From Rhodanobacter denitrificans (GTDB lineage: Bacteria; Pseudomonadota; Gammaproteobacteria; Xanthomonadales; Rhodanobacteraceae), in NCBI GenBank assembly GCA_017848855.1, contig JAFIHF010000032.1:290342-354341 (forward strand): a DNA stretch of 64,000 nt, in the 5' to 3' direction. A program made the translations under genes and the position numbers. Shown piece after piece: positions 21,190 through 50,773 of the stretch (positions are counted from its first letter, which is position 1; each line of letters opens with the position of its first letter). The notes below the pieces were generated by a model, which worked only from the letters and a program-made list of their open reading frames with translations, had not been told where the DNA came from and did no database searches.

Positions 21190-21567
21190 ATGCTGGAACA
21201 GATCGAAGGGTTGCCGCCCGGCACGCTGGGCTTTCGCGCGCACGGCCAGGTGACCGCGGCCGACTACGAGCAGTTGCTGGTGCCGGAGGTGGAGGCGCTG
21301 TTCGCGCTCAACCGCAAGCTGCGCATGCTGTTCGTGGTGGCGCCGGACTTCACCGGCTTCGACGCCGGCGCGATGTGGGACGACTTCATGCTCGGCATCC
21401 GCCACATCAGCGGCTGGGACCGCGTGGCGCTGGTGACCGACGTGCCGTGGCTGCGCACGGCCACCAAGGTGACGAGCTTCCTGGTGCCGGCCGATTTCCG
21501 CCTGTATGCGCTGGCCGAGCTGGAACAGGCGACGCGCTGGATCGCCGAGCCCGTTGCAGGGGAGTAA
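21190..21567 (+). CDS. STAS/SpoIIAA-like domain protein
   Basis: 125 residues matching the SpoIIAA-like family: an N-terminal strand (LGFRAHGQVTAADYE), the central LFVVAPDFTGFDAGAMWDD, then HISGWDRVALVTDVPWLR and a C-terminal ALAELEQATRWI. The fold is that of CRAL-TRIO/STAS-like proteins; function in proteobacteria is not established, and no partner anti-sigma kinase is adjacent. Start ATG at 21190 follows GGAGGTCGCC. Confidence 0.78.
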   Translation: MLEQIEGLPPGTLGFRAHGQVTAADYEQLLVPEVEALFALNRKLRMLFVVAPDFTGFDAGAMWDDFMLGIRHISGWDRVALVTDVPWLRTATKVTSFLVPADFRLYALAELEQATRWIAEPVAGE

Positions 21568-21641
21568 GCAAATGGACGGCCGAATGGCGTCATGCGAAAT
21601 CGTCACTTGCGTTGCGACGCAACATCTGTTCTAGTCGGCTC

Positions 21642-21761
21642 ATGACCTTCACGACCGCCACGTTCCCGAACGCCACCGCGCCTGCCGCGCGGAGCTTCGT
21701 GGCGGCCGCCAACAACAATCGCGCGAACAATAACGCCAACCGTTGGCGGGCCCGCGCGTAG
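21642..21761 (+). CDS. Asparagine-rich leader peptide of asnB
   Basis: A 39-codon frame ending in TAG at 21759-21761. Eight asparagines occur in 39 residues, seven of them in the ten-residue core NNNRANNNAN (codons 24-33). It lies 159 bases upstream of asnB, the gene for asparagine synthesis, and is directly followed by mutually exclusive hairpins and a terminator. This is the arrangement of a transcription attenuator sensing charged tRNA-Asn. The start ATG is the only reasonable one between the preceding gene and the Asn codons; its ribosome site is weak. The peptide itself is presumably not functional. Confidence 0.85.
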   Translation: MTFTTATFPNATAPAARSFVAAANNNRANNNANRWRARA

Positions 21762-21823
21762 CTGAAAGCAACACCTCCAGACACGCGACCAAGGCCCGCC
21801 CAGTGCGGGCCTTGGTTTTTTTT
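21706..21823 (+). promoter_or_regulatory. Transcription attenuator (segments 1-4) of asnB
   Basis: Segment 1, CCGCCAAC (21706-21713), overlaps the first Asn codon and pairs with segment 2, GTTGGCGG (21742-21749). Segment 2 extended, GGCGGGCC (21745-21752), pairs alternatively with segment 3, GGCCCGCC (21793-21800). Segments 3 and 4 form the terminator: CCAAGGCCCGC (21789-21799) with GCGGGCCTTGG (21805-21815), then eight Ts (21816-21823). A ribosome stalled at the Asn codons would cover segment 1 and favour 2:3, allowing read-through; one reaching the stop codon would cover segment 2 and leave 3:4 to terminate. Confidence 0.88.
21789..21823 (+). terminator. Attenuator terminator upstream of asnB
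   Basis: An 11-bp perfect stem with a 5-base loop (CCAGT) followed by TTTTTTTT, 97 bases before the asnB start codon and in its direction of transcription. Confidence 0.93.
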
Positions 21824-21920: not shown

Positions 21921-23594
21921 ATGTGTTCGATTTTCGGAATGTTCGACCTGCAACCCGGCGACGATCTCGCCGAACTGCGCCGGCAGGCGCTGGAGCTGTC
22001 GCAGCGCCAGCGCCATCGCGGCCCCGACTGGAGCGGGGTGTTCGTGGACGCGGGCGTGATCCTGGTGCACGAGCGCCTCGCCATCGTCGACCCGGCCTCC
22101 GGCGCGCAGCCGCTGCGCTCGCGCGACGGCGCGCTGGCGCTGGCGGTGAACGGCGAAATCTACAACCACCAGGCGCTGCGTGCGGCCAGCAGTTACGACT
22201 TCACCACCGGTTCGGACTGCGAGGTCATCAACGCGCTGTACCGCGAGCACGGCGCCGATTTCCTCACGAAGCTCAACGGCATCTTCGCCTTCGCGCTGTG
22301 GGACGGCGCGGCGCAGCGCTACCTGATCGCGCGCGACCCGATCGGCGTGTGCCCGCTGTACTGGGGCCACGACGTGCAGGGTCGGCTGTGCGTGGCCTCG
22401 GAGATGAAGGCGCTGGTCGGCGTGTGCGCGGACGTGGCGGCGTTCCCGCCCGGCCACGTCTACGACAGTGCCAGCGGCGAGCTGCGCCGCTACTACCACA
22501 AGCGCTGGCGCGACTACGCCGCCACGCGCGGCCATGCGGTGCAGCCGGCGCGGCTGCGCGAGGCGTTCGAGCAGGCCGTGCATCGTCAGCTGATGACCGA
22601 CGTGCCCTACGGCGTGCTGCTTTCCGGCGGGCTGGATTCCTCGCTGGTCGCCGCCTGCGCCGCGAAGTTCGCGCGCGAACGCATCGAGGACAACGACCGC
22701 AGCGAGGCGTGGTGGCCGCGCCTGCATTCCTTCGCGATCGGCCTGGAAGGCTCGCCCGACCTCGCCGCCGCGCAGATCGCCGCCGACGCGCTGGGCACGG
22801 TGCACCACGGCTTCGTCTACACCTTCTGGGAAGGGCTGGACGCCGTGCCCGAGGTGATCCGTCACCTGGAAACCTACGACGTCACCACCATCCGCGCCGC
22901 CACGCCGATGTACCTGCTGGCCCGCCGGATCAAGGCGATGGGCGTGAAGATGGTGCTCTCGGGCGAAGGCTCGGACGAGATCTTCGGCGGCTATCTGTAC
23001 TTCCACAAGGCGCCCTCGGCCGAGGCCTTCCATGAGGAGACCGTGCGCAAGCTCGACGCGCTGCACAGCTACGACTGCCTGCGCGCGAACAAGGCGATGA
23101 TGGCCTGGGGCGTGGAGGCGCGCGTGCCGTTCCTCGATCTGGAATTCATCGATGTGGCGATGGGCATGGACGCCGCGCACAAGATGGCCGGCGGCGGAAA
23201 AATCGAAAAGCACGTGCTGCGCGCGGCCTTCGACGGCGCGCTGCCGAAGGAAATCCTGTGGCGGCAGAAGGAGCAGTTCAGCGACGGCGTGGGCTACGGC
23301 TGGATCGACGGCCTCAAGGCGCACGCCGGGCAGCAGGTGAGCGACCGCGAGTTCGCCGCCGCGGCCGCGCGCTTCCCGTTCAACACGCCGGCCACCAAGG
23401 AGGCGTACTTCTACCGCCGCATCTTCGAGCAGTTCTATCCGGGCGAGGCCTGCGCCGCCACCGTGCCGGGCGGCAAGTCGATCGCCTGTTCCTCACCCGC
23501 GGCGCTGGCGTGGGATCCGGCGTTTGCGGCGATGGCCGATCCATCGGGGCGCGCGGTGAAGGGTGTGCACGAGCAGGCGTTAGGGAAGCTCTGA
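21921..23594 (+). CDS. asnB: Asparagine synthetase B (glutamine-hydrolysing)
   Basis: 557 residues. C2 is the glutaminase nucleophile (MCSIFGMFD), RHRGPDWSG and NGEIYNH are glutaminase-domain motifs, SGGLDSS at 235-241 is the ATP-pyrophosphatase loop, and GEGSDEIFGGYLYF is the aspartate/ATP site. The enzyme makes asparagine from aspartate, glutamine and ATP. It is preceded by an Asn-rich leader and terminator, so expression is predicted to rise when charged tRNA-Asn is scarce. Monocistronic as far as can be seen. Confidence 0.96.
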   Translation: MCSIFGMFDLQPGDDLAELRRQALELSQRQRHRGPDWSGVFVDAGVILVHERLAIVDPASGAQPLRSRDGALALAVNGEIYNHQALRAASSYDFTTGSDCEVINALYREHGADFLTKLNGIFAFALWDGAAQRYLIARDPIGVCPLYWGHDVQGRLCVASEMKALVGVCADVAAFPPGHVYDSASGELRRYYHKRWRDYAATRGHAVQPARLREAFEQAVHRQLMTDVPYGVLLSGGLDSSLVAACAAKFARERIEDNDRSEAWWPRLHSFAIGLEGSPDLAAAQIAADALGTVHHGFVYTFWEGLDAVPEVIRHLETYDVTTIRAATPMYLLARRIKAMGVKMVLSGEGSDEIFGGYLYFHKAPSAEAFHEETVRKLDALHSYDCLRANKAMMAWGVEARVPFLDLEFIDVAMGMDAAHKMAGGGKIEKHVLRAAFDGALPKEILWRQKEQFSDGVGYGWIDGLKAHAGQQVSDREFAAAAARFPFNTPATKEAYFYRRIFEQFYPGEACAATVPGGKSIACSSPAALAWDPAFAAMADPSGRAVKGVHEQALGKL

Positions 23595-25762: not shown

Positions 25763-26422
25763 TCAGCGTTTGCGCGCCAGCGTGAGACCGTCGCTCACCG
25801 GCAGCATCGACAGGTCGATGCGCTCGTCGCCGTGCAGGCGCTCGTTGAGCGCCTGCAGCGCGCGGGTGTCGTCGTCCTGCGCCGGCCTTGCCACCGCGCC
25901 GCTCCACAGCACGTTGTCGATCGCAATCAAGCCGCCGGGGCGCAGCAGCTGCAGGCAGCGCTCGTAGTAGTCGGCGTAGCCGGTCTTGTCGGCGTCGATG
26001 AAGGCGAAGTCGTAGCGGCCGGCCGCGCCCGCGGCCAGTTCCGCGTCCAGCGTTTCCAACGCCGGCGCCAGCCGCAGGTCGATCTTGTGCGCCACGTCGG
26101 CGCGCTCCCAGTACGGCCGGCCGATGCGCGTGTATTCCGCGCTGATGTCGCAGGCGAGGATGCGGCCGTCGGCGGGCAGGGCGAGCGCCACCGACAAGGC
26201 GCTGTAGCCGGTGAACACGCCGATCTCGATGGTCTGGCGCGCGCCGAGCAGCTTCACCAGCAGGGCCATGAACTGGCCCTGTTCCGGCGAGATCTGCATG
26301 CCGGCGTGCGGATGGCCGCGTGTCGCCGCGCGCAGGGCGGCTTGCTCCGGATGCTCGCGCAGCGAGTGCGCGAGCAGGTAGTCGTACAGCGTGTCGTCGA
26401 GGTTCAGGCTGCGGGTGGACAT
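25763..26422 (-). CDS. O-methyltransferase, caffeoyl-CoA type
   Basis: 219 residues of the SAM-dependent methyltransferase family 3. EIGVFTGYSALSVALALP is motif I, ILACDISAEYTRIGRPYW binds SAM, and FAFIDADKTGYADYYE with IAIDNVLWSGAVA are the metal-binding blocks. Bacterial members methylate catechols or are of unknown substrate. The ATG at 26420-26422 gives the expected N-terminus. It diverges from prfB with 127 bases between starts. Confidence 0.88.
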   Translation of the reverse strand: MSTRSLNLDDTLYDYLLAHSLREHPEQAALRAATRGHPHAGMQISPEQGQFMALLVKLLGARQTIEIGVFTGYSALSVALALPADGRILACDISAEYTRIGRPYWERADVAHKIDLRLAPALETLDAELAAGAAGRYDFAFIDADKTGYADYYERCLQLLRPGGLIAIDNVLWSGAVARPAQDDDTRALQALNERLHGDERIDLSMLPVSDGLTLARKR

Positions 26423-26549
26423 GGCGGCGCTCCGGTGGGCGATGCCGGGCGTGGATGCTGGCGCCGGGGCGCGCCCGGCCACCGTCCGGCGTCTGTCGCA
26501 GTGCGGCAATTTTGCTACCATGGCGGGCCATTCGCACGACACGCCAACC

Positions 26550-27675
26550 ATGATCGAGACCAATCCGATCCTCGCGCAGATCGCGGACCTCACGGGCCGC
26601 GTCGAGTCGCTTAGGGGGTATCTTTGACTACGCCACCAAGCGTGAGCGTCTCGAGGAAGTAAGCCGCGAGCTGGAGAGTCCCAACGTCTGGGACGACCCG
26701 CCGCGCGCGCAGGAGCTGGGCCGCGAACGCGCCCGCCTGGACACCGTGGTCACCGGCATCGACGAGCTCACCACGGGCCTGTCCGACGCGAAGGAACTGG
26801 TGGAGATGGCCGCTGCCGACGGCGACGAGGACACCGTCGCCTCGGTCGCGGACGACGTGGCGAAGCTGGAAGCCCGCGTGGGCAAGCTGGAATTCCAGCG
26901 CATGTTCTCCGGCAAGATGGACGCGGCGAACGCCTTCGTCGACATCCAGGCCGGCGCCGGCGGCACCGAGGCGCAGGACTGGGCCGAGATGCTGCTGCGC
27001 ATGTACCTGCGCTGGGCCGAATCGCGCGGCTGGAAGACCGAGCTGCTGGAAGTCTCCGGCGGCGAAGTGGCGGGCATCAAGTCGGCCACCTTCCGCGTCG
27101 AGGGCGACTACGCCTACGGCTGGCTGAAGACCGAGATCGGCGTGCACCGGCTGGTGCGCAAGAGCCCGTTCGATTCGGACAACCGCCGCCATACCAGCTT
27201 CACCAGCGTGTTCGTCTCGCCCGAGGTGGACGACGACATCGACATCGAGATCAACCCGGCCGACCTCAAGACCGACGTGTACCGTTCGTCCGGCGCCGGC
27301 GGCCAGCACGTCAACAAGACCGAGTCCGCGGTGCGCATCACCCACGTGCCCAGCGGCGTGGTGGTGGCCTGCCAGACCGAGCGCAGCCAGCACGCGAACC
27401 GCGACCGCGCGATGAAGATGCTGGCGGCGAAGCTGTACGAGATCGAGATCCAGAAGCGCAACGCGGAGAAGGACGCGCTGGAAGCGAGCAAGTCCGACAT
27501 CGGCTGGGGCAGCCAGATCCGCAATTACGTGCTCGACCAGAGCCGCATCAAGGACCTGCGTACCGGCGTGGAGCGCTCCGACACGCAGAAGGTGCTGGAC
27601 GGCGACCTCGACGAATTCATCGAGGCCAGCCTGAAGTCCGGCTTGGACGCGGGCGCCAAGCGCGTCGACGCGTGA
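26550..27675 (+). CDS. prfB: Peptide chain release factor 2 (programmed +1 frameshift)
   Basis: Encoded as join(26550..26624, 26626..27675), 374 residues. Codon 26 is an in-frame TGA within CTTTGAC, preceded by the internal Shine-Dalgarno-like AGGGGG at 26613-26618, the classic autoregulatory frameshift site: when RF2 is scarce, the ribosome slips +1 and completes the protein. The second frame carries the SPF-equivalent region and [14 protein letters not shown] with the catalytic GGQ. RF2 recognises UGA and UAA. Followed by a small repeat protein gene and lysS, a common neighbour of prfB. Confidence 0.96.
26613..26627 (+). promoter_or_regulatory. prfB recoding site
   Basis: AGGGGG, then TAT, then CTT TGA C. 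The spacing of three bases between the SD-like element and the CTT slippery codon matches the canonical RF2 signal. Confidence 0.96.
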
Positions 27676-48928: not shown

Positions 48929-50773
48929 ATGAAGCTTTTGAAGCATGTTGCGGTATGGGGCGGGTTGGGCGTCCTGTTCTCCGCTTGCACGTTTGCCGCC
49001 CCGGCAGTCCCTGCGCGCGGACTTTCCGTCGACCACGGCCATTTCGTGCTCGATGGCAAACCTTTCCGCATCGTCGCCGGGGAGATGCACTACACGCGCA
49101 TCCCGCGCGAGTACTGGCGCGCACGCCTGCAGATGGCCAAGGCGATGGGTTTGAATACCATCACCACCTATGTGTTCTGGAATGTGCACGAAGCGGTTCC
49201 GGGCCACTACGACTTCAGCGGCCAGAACGATGTCGCGGAATTCATCCGCGAGGCGCAGCAGGAAGGGCTGTACGTGATCCTCCGGCCCGGACCGTACGTA
49301 TGCGCCGAATGGGAATTTGGCGGCCTGCCGGCGTGGCTGCTGAAAGATGGCGACCTGCAGGTGCGCAGCACCGACCCGAACTTCATGCAGCCGGCCCTGC
49401 GCTGGCTGCACCGCCTGGGCAGCGAGCTGGCGCCGCTGCAGCTCGACCGCGGCGGCAACATCATCGCCGTGCAGGTGGAAAACGAATACGGCAGCTACGG
49501 TCACGACAAAGGCTACCTGGAGCAGATCCGCCAAGGCGTGATCGACAGCGGTTTCAACGCGTCGCTGCTTTACACGTCCGACAGCGCCGAGCAGCCCGGT
49601 TCATTGCCCGGCCTGCTCGAGGTCATCAATTTCGGCGTCGGCCACGCGAAGAAGAAATTCGCGCAACTGCACGCGTGGCAGCCCGGCGGACCCTACATGG
49701 CCGGCGAATACTGGGCCGGCTGGTTCGACTCCTGGGGCGGGCCGCACCATGTATCGCCCCCCGGCCTGGTTGCCGGCGAGGTCGACTGGATGCTGAAACA
49801 GGGCTATTCCGTCAGTCTCTACATGTTCCATGGCGGCACGTCGTTCGGTTGGATGAATGGCGCCAACTGGAACGAGGGCACTTACCAGCCCGAAGTCAGC
49901 AGCTACGACTACGACAGCCCGCTGGACGAAAGCGGCAGGCCGACGCCGAAATACGACGCGCTGCGCAAGGCCATCGCCGACGCAACCGGAGCGACGCCGC
50001 CGCCGGTACCGCCGACCCCGCCCACCCAAGCCATCGCCGGCATCAAGCTGGACGAGTCGGTGTCGCTGTGGGACGTGCTGCCCGCACCGGTGGCATCGCA
50101 CGAGTTGCAGTCCATGGAAGCGCTTGGACAGTCGTATGGCGACATCCTCTACCGCAAGCGCATCGAGCGCGACTTCACGGGCAAATTGCGCATCCATGGC
50201 CTGCACGACTACGCCGTGGTCTTCGTCAACGGCAAGCGCATCGGCACGCTCGATCGCCGGCTCGGGCAGGATCGATTGCCCGTGAAGCTGGCCAAGGGCG
50301 ACACGCTGGATCTGCTGGTGCAGAACGACGGACGCATCAATTTCGGCGACAAGCTGCGTTCGGAGCGCAAGGGCATCCTCGGCAGCGTCACCCTGCAAGG
50401 CCGTCCATTGCAGGACTGGAGCATCTATTCCCTGCCATTCAGCCAGGTCGATGCCTTGCACTACAGCCACGCTGCGTGCACGCAAACGCCGTGCGTCTAT
50501 CGCGGCCACTTCGACGCGCCGGCCTCGGGCAACGCCGCCGCCGACACCTTCCTCGATACGACCGGCCTGGGCAAAGGCATGGTCTGGCTCAACGGACACC
50601 CGCTGGGCCGCACCTGGAACATCGGCCCGCAACGCACCCTGTATGTGCCGGGCGCCTGGCTGAAGCCCCGCAACAATCGGTTGATCGTGCTCGATCTCCT
50701 GGTGGGAGGCCAGCCGGTGCTGAACACATTGAAGCATCCCGTGCTGGGCACGACGGTCGTGACGGTGCCCTGA
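48929..50773 (+). CDS. Secreted glycoside hydrolase family 35 (beta-galactosidase)
   Basis: 614 residues. N-terminal export signal ending near FSAC or TFAAPA (the cysteine is not in a strong lipobox). GH35 signatures: AGEMHYTRIPREYW, RPGPYVCAEWEFGGLPAW, acid/base E184 in VQVENEYGSYG and nucleophile E260 in AGEYWAGWFDSWG. The C-terminal part holds the jelly-roll galactose-binding domains (KGMVWLNGHPLGRTWNIGPQ). It removes terminal beta-galactose, or a related sugar, from the target glycan. AGAGGGAACA precedes the ATG. Confidence 0.93.
   Translation: MKLLKHVAVWGGLGVLFSACTFAAPAVPARGLSVDHGHFVLDGKPFRIVAGEMHYTRIPREYWRARLQMAKAMGLNTITTYVFWNVHEAVPGHYDFSGQNDVAEFIREAQQEGLYVILRPGPYVCAEWEFGGLPAWLLKDGDLQVRSTDPNFMQPALRWLHRLGSELAPLQLDRGGNIIAVQVENEYGSYGHDKGYLEQIRQGVIDSGFNASLLYTSDSAEQPGSLPGLLEVINFGVGHAKKKFAQLHAWQPGGPYMAGEYWAGWFDSWGGPHHVSPPGLVAGEVDWMLKQGYSVSLYMFHGGTSFGWMNGANWNEGTYQPEVSSYDYDSPLDESGRPTPKYDALRKAIADATGATPPPVPPTPPTQAIAGIKLDESVSLWDVLPAPVASHELQSMEALGQSYGDILYRKRIERDFTGKLRIHGLHDYAVVFVNGKRIGTLDRRLGQDRLPVKLAKGDTLDLLVQNDGRINFGDKLRSERKGILGSVTLQGRPLQDWSIYSLPFSQVDALHYSHAACTQTPCVYRGHFDAPASGNAAADTFLDTTGLGKGMVWLNGHPLGRTWNIGPQRTLYVPGAWLKPRNNRLIVLDLLVGGQPVLNTLKHPVLGTTVVTVP

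Follow-up and report, generated by a model that had tools for sequence, protein, structure and literature searches.

The asnB locus

The window analysed here is a stretch of 64,000 nucleotides from Rhodanobacter denitrificans. It contains asnB, a gene for a glutamine-hydrolysing asparagine synthetase of 557 residues, at 21921–23594 on the forward strand. The product matches two NCBIfam models, NF006949 (868 bits, cut-off 499) and TIGR01536 (442 bits, above the cut-off). The same genome has an asnS match over its cut-off and gave no match to asnA. Of these two kinds of asparagine synthetase AsnB alone was thus found, and the presence of asnS means that free asparagine can be charged onto tRNA. 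The 557 residues of AsnB include 7 Asn, all encoded by AAC, and this low content might suit an enzyme that is made when asparagine is scarce.

Upstream of asnB lies a short ORF of 39 codons, running on the forward strand from an ATG at 21642 to a TAG at 21759–21761, with the predicted 39-residue product MTFTTATFPNATAPAARSFVAAANNNRANNNANRWRARA. The codons at 21711–21740 read N N N R A N N N A N, so that seven of these ten specify Asn. A short ORF, predicted to be translated, here carries a cluster of codons for the very amino acid that the enzyme encoded downstream produces. Beyond the ORF, 21789–21799 pairs with 21805–21815 (11 bp) and is followed by eight T (21816–21823). A first-pass annotation of this DNA had described both a 39-codon leader with seven Asn codons among ten and an 11-bp terminator with eight Ts; each is read directly at its place, and the terminator shows compensatory changes in relatives. 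The features of the locus are as follows, f1 being the window genome's own family.

21607..21612, forward: predicted −35 element TTGCGT, in a layout conserved in relatives
21630..21635, forward: predicted −10 element TCTAGT, 6 nt 5′ of the leader ATG, with a conserved gap
21642..21761, forward: leader peptide ORF, 39 aa, translation predicted from a leaderless mRNA; homologous leaders in relatives
21706..21713, forward: segment 1 of the first-pass annotation, complementary to 21742–21749; found in the full-length minimum-energy fold without a ribosome
21711..21740, forward: putative regulatory Asn codons NNNRANNNAN; AAC and AAT interchange at several conserved Asn columns
21734..21739, forward: 5′ arm CGCCAA of a local competitor hairpin with TTGGCG at 21743–21748, from predicted folds
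21745..21752, forward: segment 2, outer antiterminator helix with 21793–21800; 87.5% of cells paired, more stable than synonymous recodings
21755..21759, forward: inner antiterminator helix CGCGT with ACGCG at 21783–21787, predicted by folding
21783..21800, forward: segment 3, forming the 3′ strand of the antiterminator and sharing bases with the 5′ arm of the terminator; from folding and pair comparison
21789..21823, forward: predicted intrinsic terminator; hairpin in 77/77 f1 orthologues, 99.3% of cells paired
21921..23594, forward: asnB, glutamine-hydrolysing asparagine synthetase; NF006949 equivalog model, TIGR01536

The frequency of such an arrangement by chance was estimated with a scan for a short ATG ORF having at least 4 Asn per 14 codons and a terminator no more than 75 nt downstream. 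The control comprised 381 kb of the same genome beyond the window, in 20 stretches and on both strands; the scan covered 890,732 strand-bases with the window included, and control figures are those left after subtraction of the window. An Asn-rich ORF tail followed by a terminator was matched nowhere in the 381 kb control on either strand. Inside the window two matches came up, the asnB leader and the last part of a minus-strand frame of 133 codons that ends at reverse-strand position 49061. Ten-codon stretches with at least six Asn numbered four on the forward strand of the window and none in the control. Given the relatives described below, an Asn leader with a terminator before asnB is far more than chance. 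The 700 bases scanned at the start of asnS in the window genome gave no Asn-leader match.

Farther along the window, a frame at 26391–26627 ends ...SLRGYL at its stop and is followed by a release-factor-2-like frame at 26746–27675. The pair looks like what we take to be prfB with the usual programmed frameshift site.

A predicted leaderless start

Promoter-like elements stand directly before the leader, in the layout TTGCGT, 17 nt, TCTAGT, 6 nt, ATG. Relatives were scored for TTG, 16–18 nt, TnnnnT, 4–9 nt and ATG. This pattern was found at 69 of 72 f1 leaders recovered by the automatic test described below, 17 of 20 in a second family (f2), two of three in a third (f3) and not at the single leader of f8. 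Taken over f1, f2 and f3, it precedes 88 of 95 leaders versus 41 of 8438 control ATGs, a count slightly favoured by the choice of the best in-frame ATG for each leader. The gap from −10 element to ATG is 6 or 7 nt in 63 of the 69 promoter-bearing f1 leaders and 16 of the 17 in f2. A Shine–Dalgarno-like tetramer precedes 1 of 88 leader ATGs versus 60 of 75 asnB ATGs. The RNA is predicted to start at the leader AUG or within a few bases of it, and with a promoter at the leader and no Shine–Dalgarno sequence, translation of the leader probably takes place on a leaderless mRNA.

Distribution among relatives

A search of 117 f1 genomes gave a full-length AsnB match in 90 (in one as two pieces), and upstream bases were taken at all 90 loci. 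Orthologues at 79% identity or more to the window's AsnB number 77, from 20 genera; the other 13 proteins are 62–66% identical. An automatic test for an Asn leader plus terminator was passed by 72 of these 77. Leaders of the remaining five (L054, L058, L062, L072 and L074) show three clustered Asn codons on inspection by eye. All 77 loci have a terminator hairpin between leader ORF and first gene, where termination is predicted. Before the more distant homologues, in contrast, the whole element is absent: leader and terminator were found at 0 of the 13 f1 loci with 62–66% identity. These loci, L077–L089, belong to thirteen f1 genomes in which an AsnB lacking the leader element takes the place of the orthologue, as if the gene and its control had been replaced together. 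At G028:C44:53515-55168, asnB was matched as two overlapping pieces and may be frameshifted or misassembled; the leader is present there (L090). In L012, L013, L044, L046 and others, stretches like GCCATGGATGGCCGGTATGCCGGAAA lie between terminator and asnB; in L046 the stretch is repeated, and the terminator ends 384 nt 5′ of asnB.

At the level of the order, 200 genomes were searched and 127 had an AsnB match. Forty upstream regions were taken: 21 from the 32 genomes of f2, perhaps Xanthomonadaceae, with AsnB of at least 76% identity, three of three from f3, and 16 of 62 from the remainder. Leader and terminator precede 20 of the 21 orthologues of f2, all three of f3 and one of the 16 from remaining members of the order. 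In G239, the one f2 locus that failed, inspection by eye shows a leader with three Asn codons. One genome of f8, G188 (L205/L217/L260), has a leader with MFAIYNTINTTNNRLLRSAGSF and a strong terminator before asnB. This leader lacks a leaderless promoter of the pattern given above; a promoter-like stretch lies farther from the ATG. Common origin, transfer and convergence are candidate sources of the f8 leader. A wider scan drew on 60 AsnB loci, 30 from the 32 matching genomes of f8 and 30 from the 105 in the order of G420; six were dropped as their start codon was not located. Among the 54 loci scanned, G188 included, the leader of G188 was the sole convincing one. A second match was rejected, as it has no antiterminator (−2.2).

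Named genomes (the best 80 of 465) were also examined, and 76 of 80 loci passed the automatic test, a figure that is not independent since these loci overlap with other genomes counted here. Rhodanobacter, Dyella, Frateuria, Fulvimonas and Dokdonella are among the genera that passed. Three misses, L130, L147 and L171, have at most 250 bases upstream; the fourth, L174, is on a contig equal in length to that of L058, one of the loci with three clustered Asn codons.

A covariance model was built from 43 f1 leaders, and 30 candidates per genome were scored. Among the matches listed, 75 of 114 f1 genomes had a full-length match at the asnB site (E 3.5e-6 or lower); these are all genomes of the model search that have an AsnB orthologue, and the model's own sequences match by construction. 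Inspection of weaker full-length matches covered seven and left out others, for example one in G100. None of the seven has an Asn leader, and all look like gene-end terminators, including the match in G074, a genome without the orthologue. In a class-wide search of 274 genomes no match comparable to the window's own appeared, a weak negative because the f1 model is blind to distant leaders and did not list the asnB leaders of the f2 genomes G117 and G128. Eleven further class-wide loci were scanned and yielded no convincing leader; three chance ORFs among them had antiterminator energies of −5.3 to −9.7 kcal/mol.

The first-pass annotation had proposed such a comparison of related genera, in which asnB leaders devoid of Asn codons or alternative pairings would have counted against the attenuator. 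Asn codons, antiterminator and terminator are kept in the orthologues, and no orthologous leader devoid of Asn codons or pairings was seen among them.

Conservation and choice of Asn codons

Codon columns were compared in two leader sets aligned on the stop codon (n=18 and n=24). Asn is largely retained in its columns, several of which switch between AAC and AAT. In the first set, codon −15 is Asn in 18 of 18 leaders, with 7 AAC and 11 AAT; in the second, codon −16 is Asn in 24 of 24 (17 AAT and 7 AAC). Other Asn columns are near single-codon, such as codon −11 with AAC in 17 of 18. The residues after the Asn run (RWRARA, GWAGV, GRAGV) are those that spell segment 2. AAT makes up 226 of 498 Asn codons in the 72 f1 leaders versus 84 of 576 in the asnB genes of the 80 named loci. 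The leaders of some relatives have only three Asn codons.

Alternative RNA structures

Two helices compete for the same bases. Segment 2, GGCGGGCC at 21745–21752, is complementary to GGCCCGCC at 21793–21800, forming an outer antiterminator helix of 8 bp, and the latter segment overlaps the terminator arm at 21789–21799. The antiterminator and terminator that the first-pass annotation held to be mutually exclusive thus share bases. The antiterminator is longer than described there, with a predicted inner helix of 21755–21759 and 21783–21787. Compensatory changes accompany the conservation of the antiterminator in relatives. Dyella-type sequences have GCGTGT with ACACGC as inner helix, as seen by inspection without a formal count.

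Covariation was counted in an alignment of 45 of the 101 leaders (28/77 f1, 15/20 f2, 2/3 f3, 0/1 f8), picked by eye for genus diversity. A second alignment, which contains 43 of the 77 f1 leaders and underlies the covariance model, did not enter these counts, since it places the inner helix out of register. In the 45 sequences, from three families, the outer antiterminator has 87.5% of cells paired, and slid registers reach at most 50%. Cells changed on both sides number 19 versus a shuffle mean of 7.7 (0 of 500 shuffles as high), and four pairs are changed on both sides (7 of 500 as high); in further pair types the antiterminator does not exceed shuffles (242 of 500 as high). In the terminator, 99.3% of cells are paired and 31 cells are changed on both sides versus a shuffle mean of 5.7 (0 of 500 as high). 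Two other terminator counts do not exceed shuffles: pairs changed on both sides, of which there are four (105 of 500), and further pair types, of which there are nine (149 of 500). The shuffles ignore relatedness, so that all these covariation figures are support and not probabilities.

A telling change is between families: f1 has GGCGGGCC/GGCCCGCC versus TGCGGGTC/AACCCGCA in f2, and one f2 leader, L196, has CGCAGGCC/GGCCTGCA. The f1 segment 2 forms a duplex of −25.6 kcal/mol with the f1 segment 3 and of −16.1 with the f2 segment 3; for the f2 segment 2 the values are −23.6 within f2 and −18.3 with f1. Mixed f1–f2 duplexes lose 5–10 kcal/mol. The f3 segment 2 pairs better with the f1 segment 3 (−26.4) than with its own (−23.3), and that of f8 (−15.1 with its own) equally well with the segment 3 of other families (−15.3 to −16.6). 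The f2 segment 2 gives −13.7 with the f8 segment 3. Exchange between f1 genera changes little (−25.6 own, −24.9 exchanged) and is uninformative.

Segment 2 lies within the leader ORF, and native duplexes of segments 2 and 3 were compared with those of synonymous recodings. In the 72 f1 leaders the mean energy is −26.0 versus −19.0 kcal/mol, with 49 of 72 beyond 95% of recodings, and in f2 it is −23.6 versus −17.4 (9 of 20). The values are −23.3 versus −21.0 in f3 (0 of 3) and −15.1 versus −12.2 in f8 (0 of 1). The gain thus falls short of the 95% mark in 23 of 72 f1 leaders, 11 of 20 in f2, all three of f3 and the f8 leader.

As a pause hairpin, the first-pass annotation paired CCGCCAAC at 21706–21713 with GTTGGCGG at 21742–21749; this complementarity is present in the window, but comparison with relatives gives it no support. 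A hairpin of at least 4 bp lies near the competitor or pause site in 70 of 72 f1, 20 of 20 f2 and two of three f3 leaders. In these families the native hairpin is hardly more stable than in synonymous recodings, with mean energies of −7.9 versus −6.7 (f1), −7.9 versus −8.0 (f2) and −11.0 versus −10.9 (f3).

Proposed mechanism and alternatives

The leader, its Asn codons, the two exclusive helices, their conservation and the compensatory changes are properties that can be read from the sequences themselves. They point to ribosome-mediated attenuation of asnB transcription, with charged tRNA-Asn as the signal. This reading is given a probability of about 0.88; from it we infer the start site, the stalling itself, termination and regulation at the level of expression. 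The proposed steps are as follows. (i) The leader AUG, or a base adjacent to it, would be the transcription start, and a ribosome would initiate on the leaderless RNA. (ii) With ample Asn-tRNA, this ribosome would pass the Asn codons, reach the UAG and cover segment 2. (iii) The nascent RNA would then form the terminator, and transcription would end near 21823. (iv) When Asn-tRNA is scarce, the ribosome would stall on the Asn run, leaving segment 2 free to pair with segment 3. (v) This antiterminator would keep the terminator from forming in time, and RNA polymerase would continue into asnB.

Alternation of the folds with ribosome position, as claimed in the first-pass annotation, is reproduced in computed nascent folds. 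RNA up to 21804 was folded with an assumed ribosome footprint of 13 nt from the A-site. In the window, every Asn codon from 21711 to 21732 yields the antiterminator when placed in the A-site; no antiterminator forms with the A-site at 21738 or at the stop. An antiterminator of at least 5 pairs is predicted for all 96 automatic leaders when the A-site sits on the cluster's first Asn codon, for 67 of 96 when it sits on the last (43/72 f1, 20/20 f2, 3/3 f3, 1/1 f8), and for 0 of 96 when it is at the stop, largely because segment 2 is then masked. In these computations, segment 2 is thus left open by stalling and covered once the ribosome has arrived at the stop codon. RNA up to 21804 also folds into the antiterminator when no ribosome is present. 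Full-length minimum-energy folds contain the terminator in every ribosome state tried, so the choice between the two structures must be kinetic.

Among other explanations, the one that survives best accepts a translated leader and assigns it a different regulation: the terminated RNA or the Asn-rich peptide would act in trans, or the ribosome would stall on the peptide sequence instead of for lack of Asn-tRNA. A trans role is known for a leaderless leader, the rnTrpL/peTrpL of S. meliloti (PMC7298713). A sensor in cis, however, would be expected to preserve Asn codons and RNA pairings, and these are kept although the N-terminal halves of the peptides differ between genera; this explanation is considered quite improbable.

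It is less probable still, indeed very unlikely, that the hairpin is merely the terminator of the upstream gene (an ORF ending at 21567) and the Asn-rich ORF incidental. The upstream ORF does lie on the same strand in the window and, by crude calls, at 51 of 61 callable named loci; 13 more gave no call and two had too little DNA. Yet this ORF varies and is on the opposite strand at 10 of the 61 (crude calls as well), and a conserved promoter stands directly before the leader. On account of that promoter and the changing upstream ORF the explanation was set aside. The element also tracks asnB orthologues over 20 f1 genera, is absent at 13 of 13 distant homologues, and keeps its Asn codons at the amino acid level.

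No Rfam family reached its gathering score in the window or in 20 relatives, T-boxes included. Below threshold there were 16 matches at E up to 1 in the 20 relatives, several of them to Thr, Leu or Trp leader models and none to a T-box. The best was Thr_leader at 30.9 bits in L180 (cut-off 55), and such matches are a generic likeness. Control of asnB by a T-box or metabolite riboswitch, with the ORF as by-product, is scarcely credible, for although T-box control is described for asnS in a few Firmicutes and for an Asn transporter gene (PMC2494555), the Rfam search stands against it, the conserved structure is located within the ORF or directly behind it, and the Asn codons are conserved as codons.

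An extension of the attenuator reading is thought unlikely, less so than the explanations just discussed. The leaders would form an order-wide Asn class on leaderless mRNA whose AAU-rich run also senses the decoding quality of tRNA-Asn, for example queuosine modification of the wobble base, and the terminated RNA of about 180 nt might stay translated and act in trans as in S. meliloti.

Relationship to known systems

Leader-peptide attenuators are classically those of the trp, his, leu, ilv, thr and phe operons. Vitreschak and colleagues reportedly published a proteobacterial survey in 2004. The first-pass annotation had suspected an undescribed leader class. No example of an Asn leader-peptide attenuator was found in the literature searched, which comprised open-access papers, most subscription papers lying outside it. 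By word search, 'asparagin' is absent from the main text of PMC2965389 (premature terminators), PMC1262725 (Actinobacteria) and PMC8632094 (structured RNAs). The kind of mechanism is old. Novelty would lie in the amino acid and the gene concerned, in an occurrence across three families of one order, and in the leaderless start that is predicted; Asn specificity of this textbook mechanism is probably new as such.

If the attenuator reading is true, asparagine joins the amino acids read by ribosome-mediated attenuation. About 100 loci in three families would then provide natural variants for the effects of codon number, codon choice and helix register. The predicted leaderless start would make for a simple system with one promoter, one mode of ribosome loading and one decision. 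The leader may also mark the true asnB orthologues of the order as opposed to homologues without one.

T-boxes bind tRNA directly. The Asn-specific T-boxes of Firmicutes resemble the Asn leader in that uncharged tRNA-Asn is sensed and Asn genes are under antitermination (PMC2494555); unlike it, they need no leader ORF or ribosome. Another related system is uORFC-8-2, a Cys-codon leader upstream of cysS in Rhodobacterales (PMC8632094). It too is a predicted ribosome-stalling attenuator for an amino acid outside the classical set, with Cys and a tRNA synthetase gene where the present leader has Asn and a biosynthetic gene. S. meliloti trpL offers the parallel for the start: its leader RNA is reported to begin with the AUG of the leader ORF (PMC7298713), as is predicted here. 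It differs in its amino acid (Trp), in the bacterial class and in the trans role reported for it. With the classical attenuators represented by the Rfam families Trp_leader, Leu_leader and Thr_leader, the asnB leader shares a short ORF rich in codons for the product, an antiterminator overlapping the terminator, and a logic in which stalling would lead to read-through. It departs from them in its Asn specificity, its asnB target, its predicted leaderless start, a stop codon beyond segment 2 and scores below the Rfam leader cut-offs.
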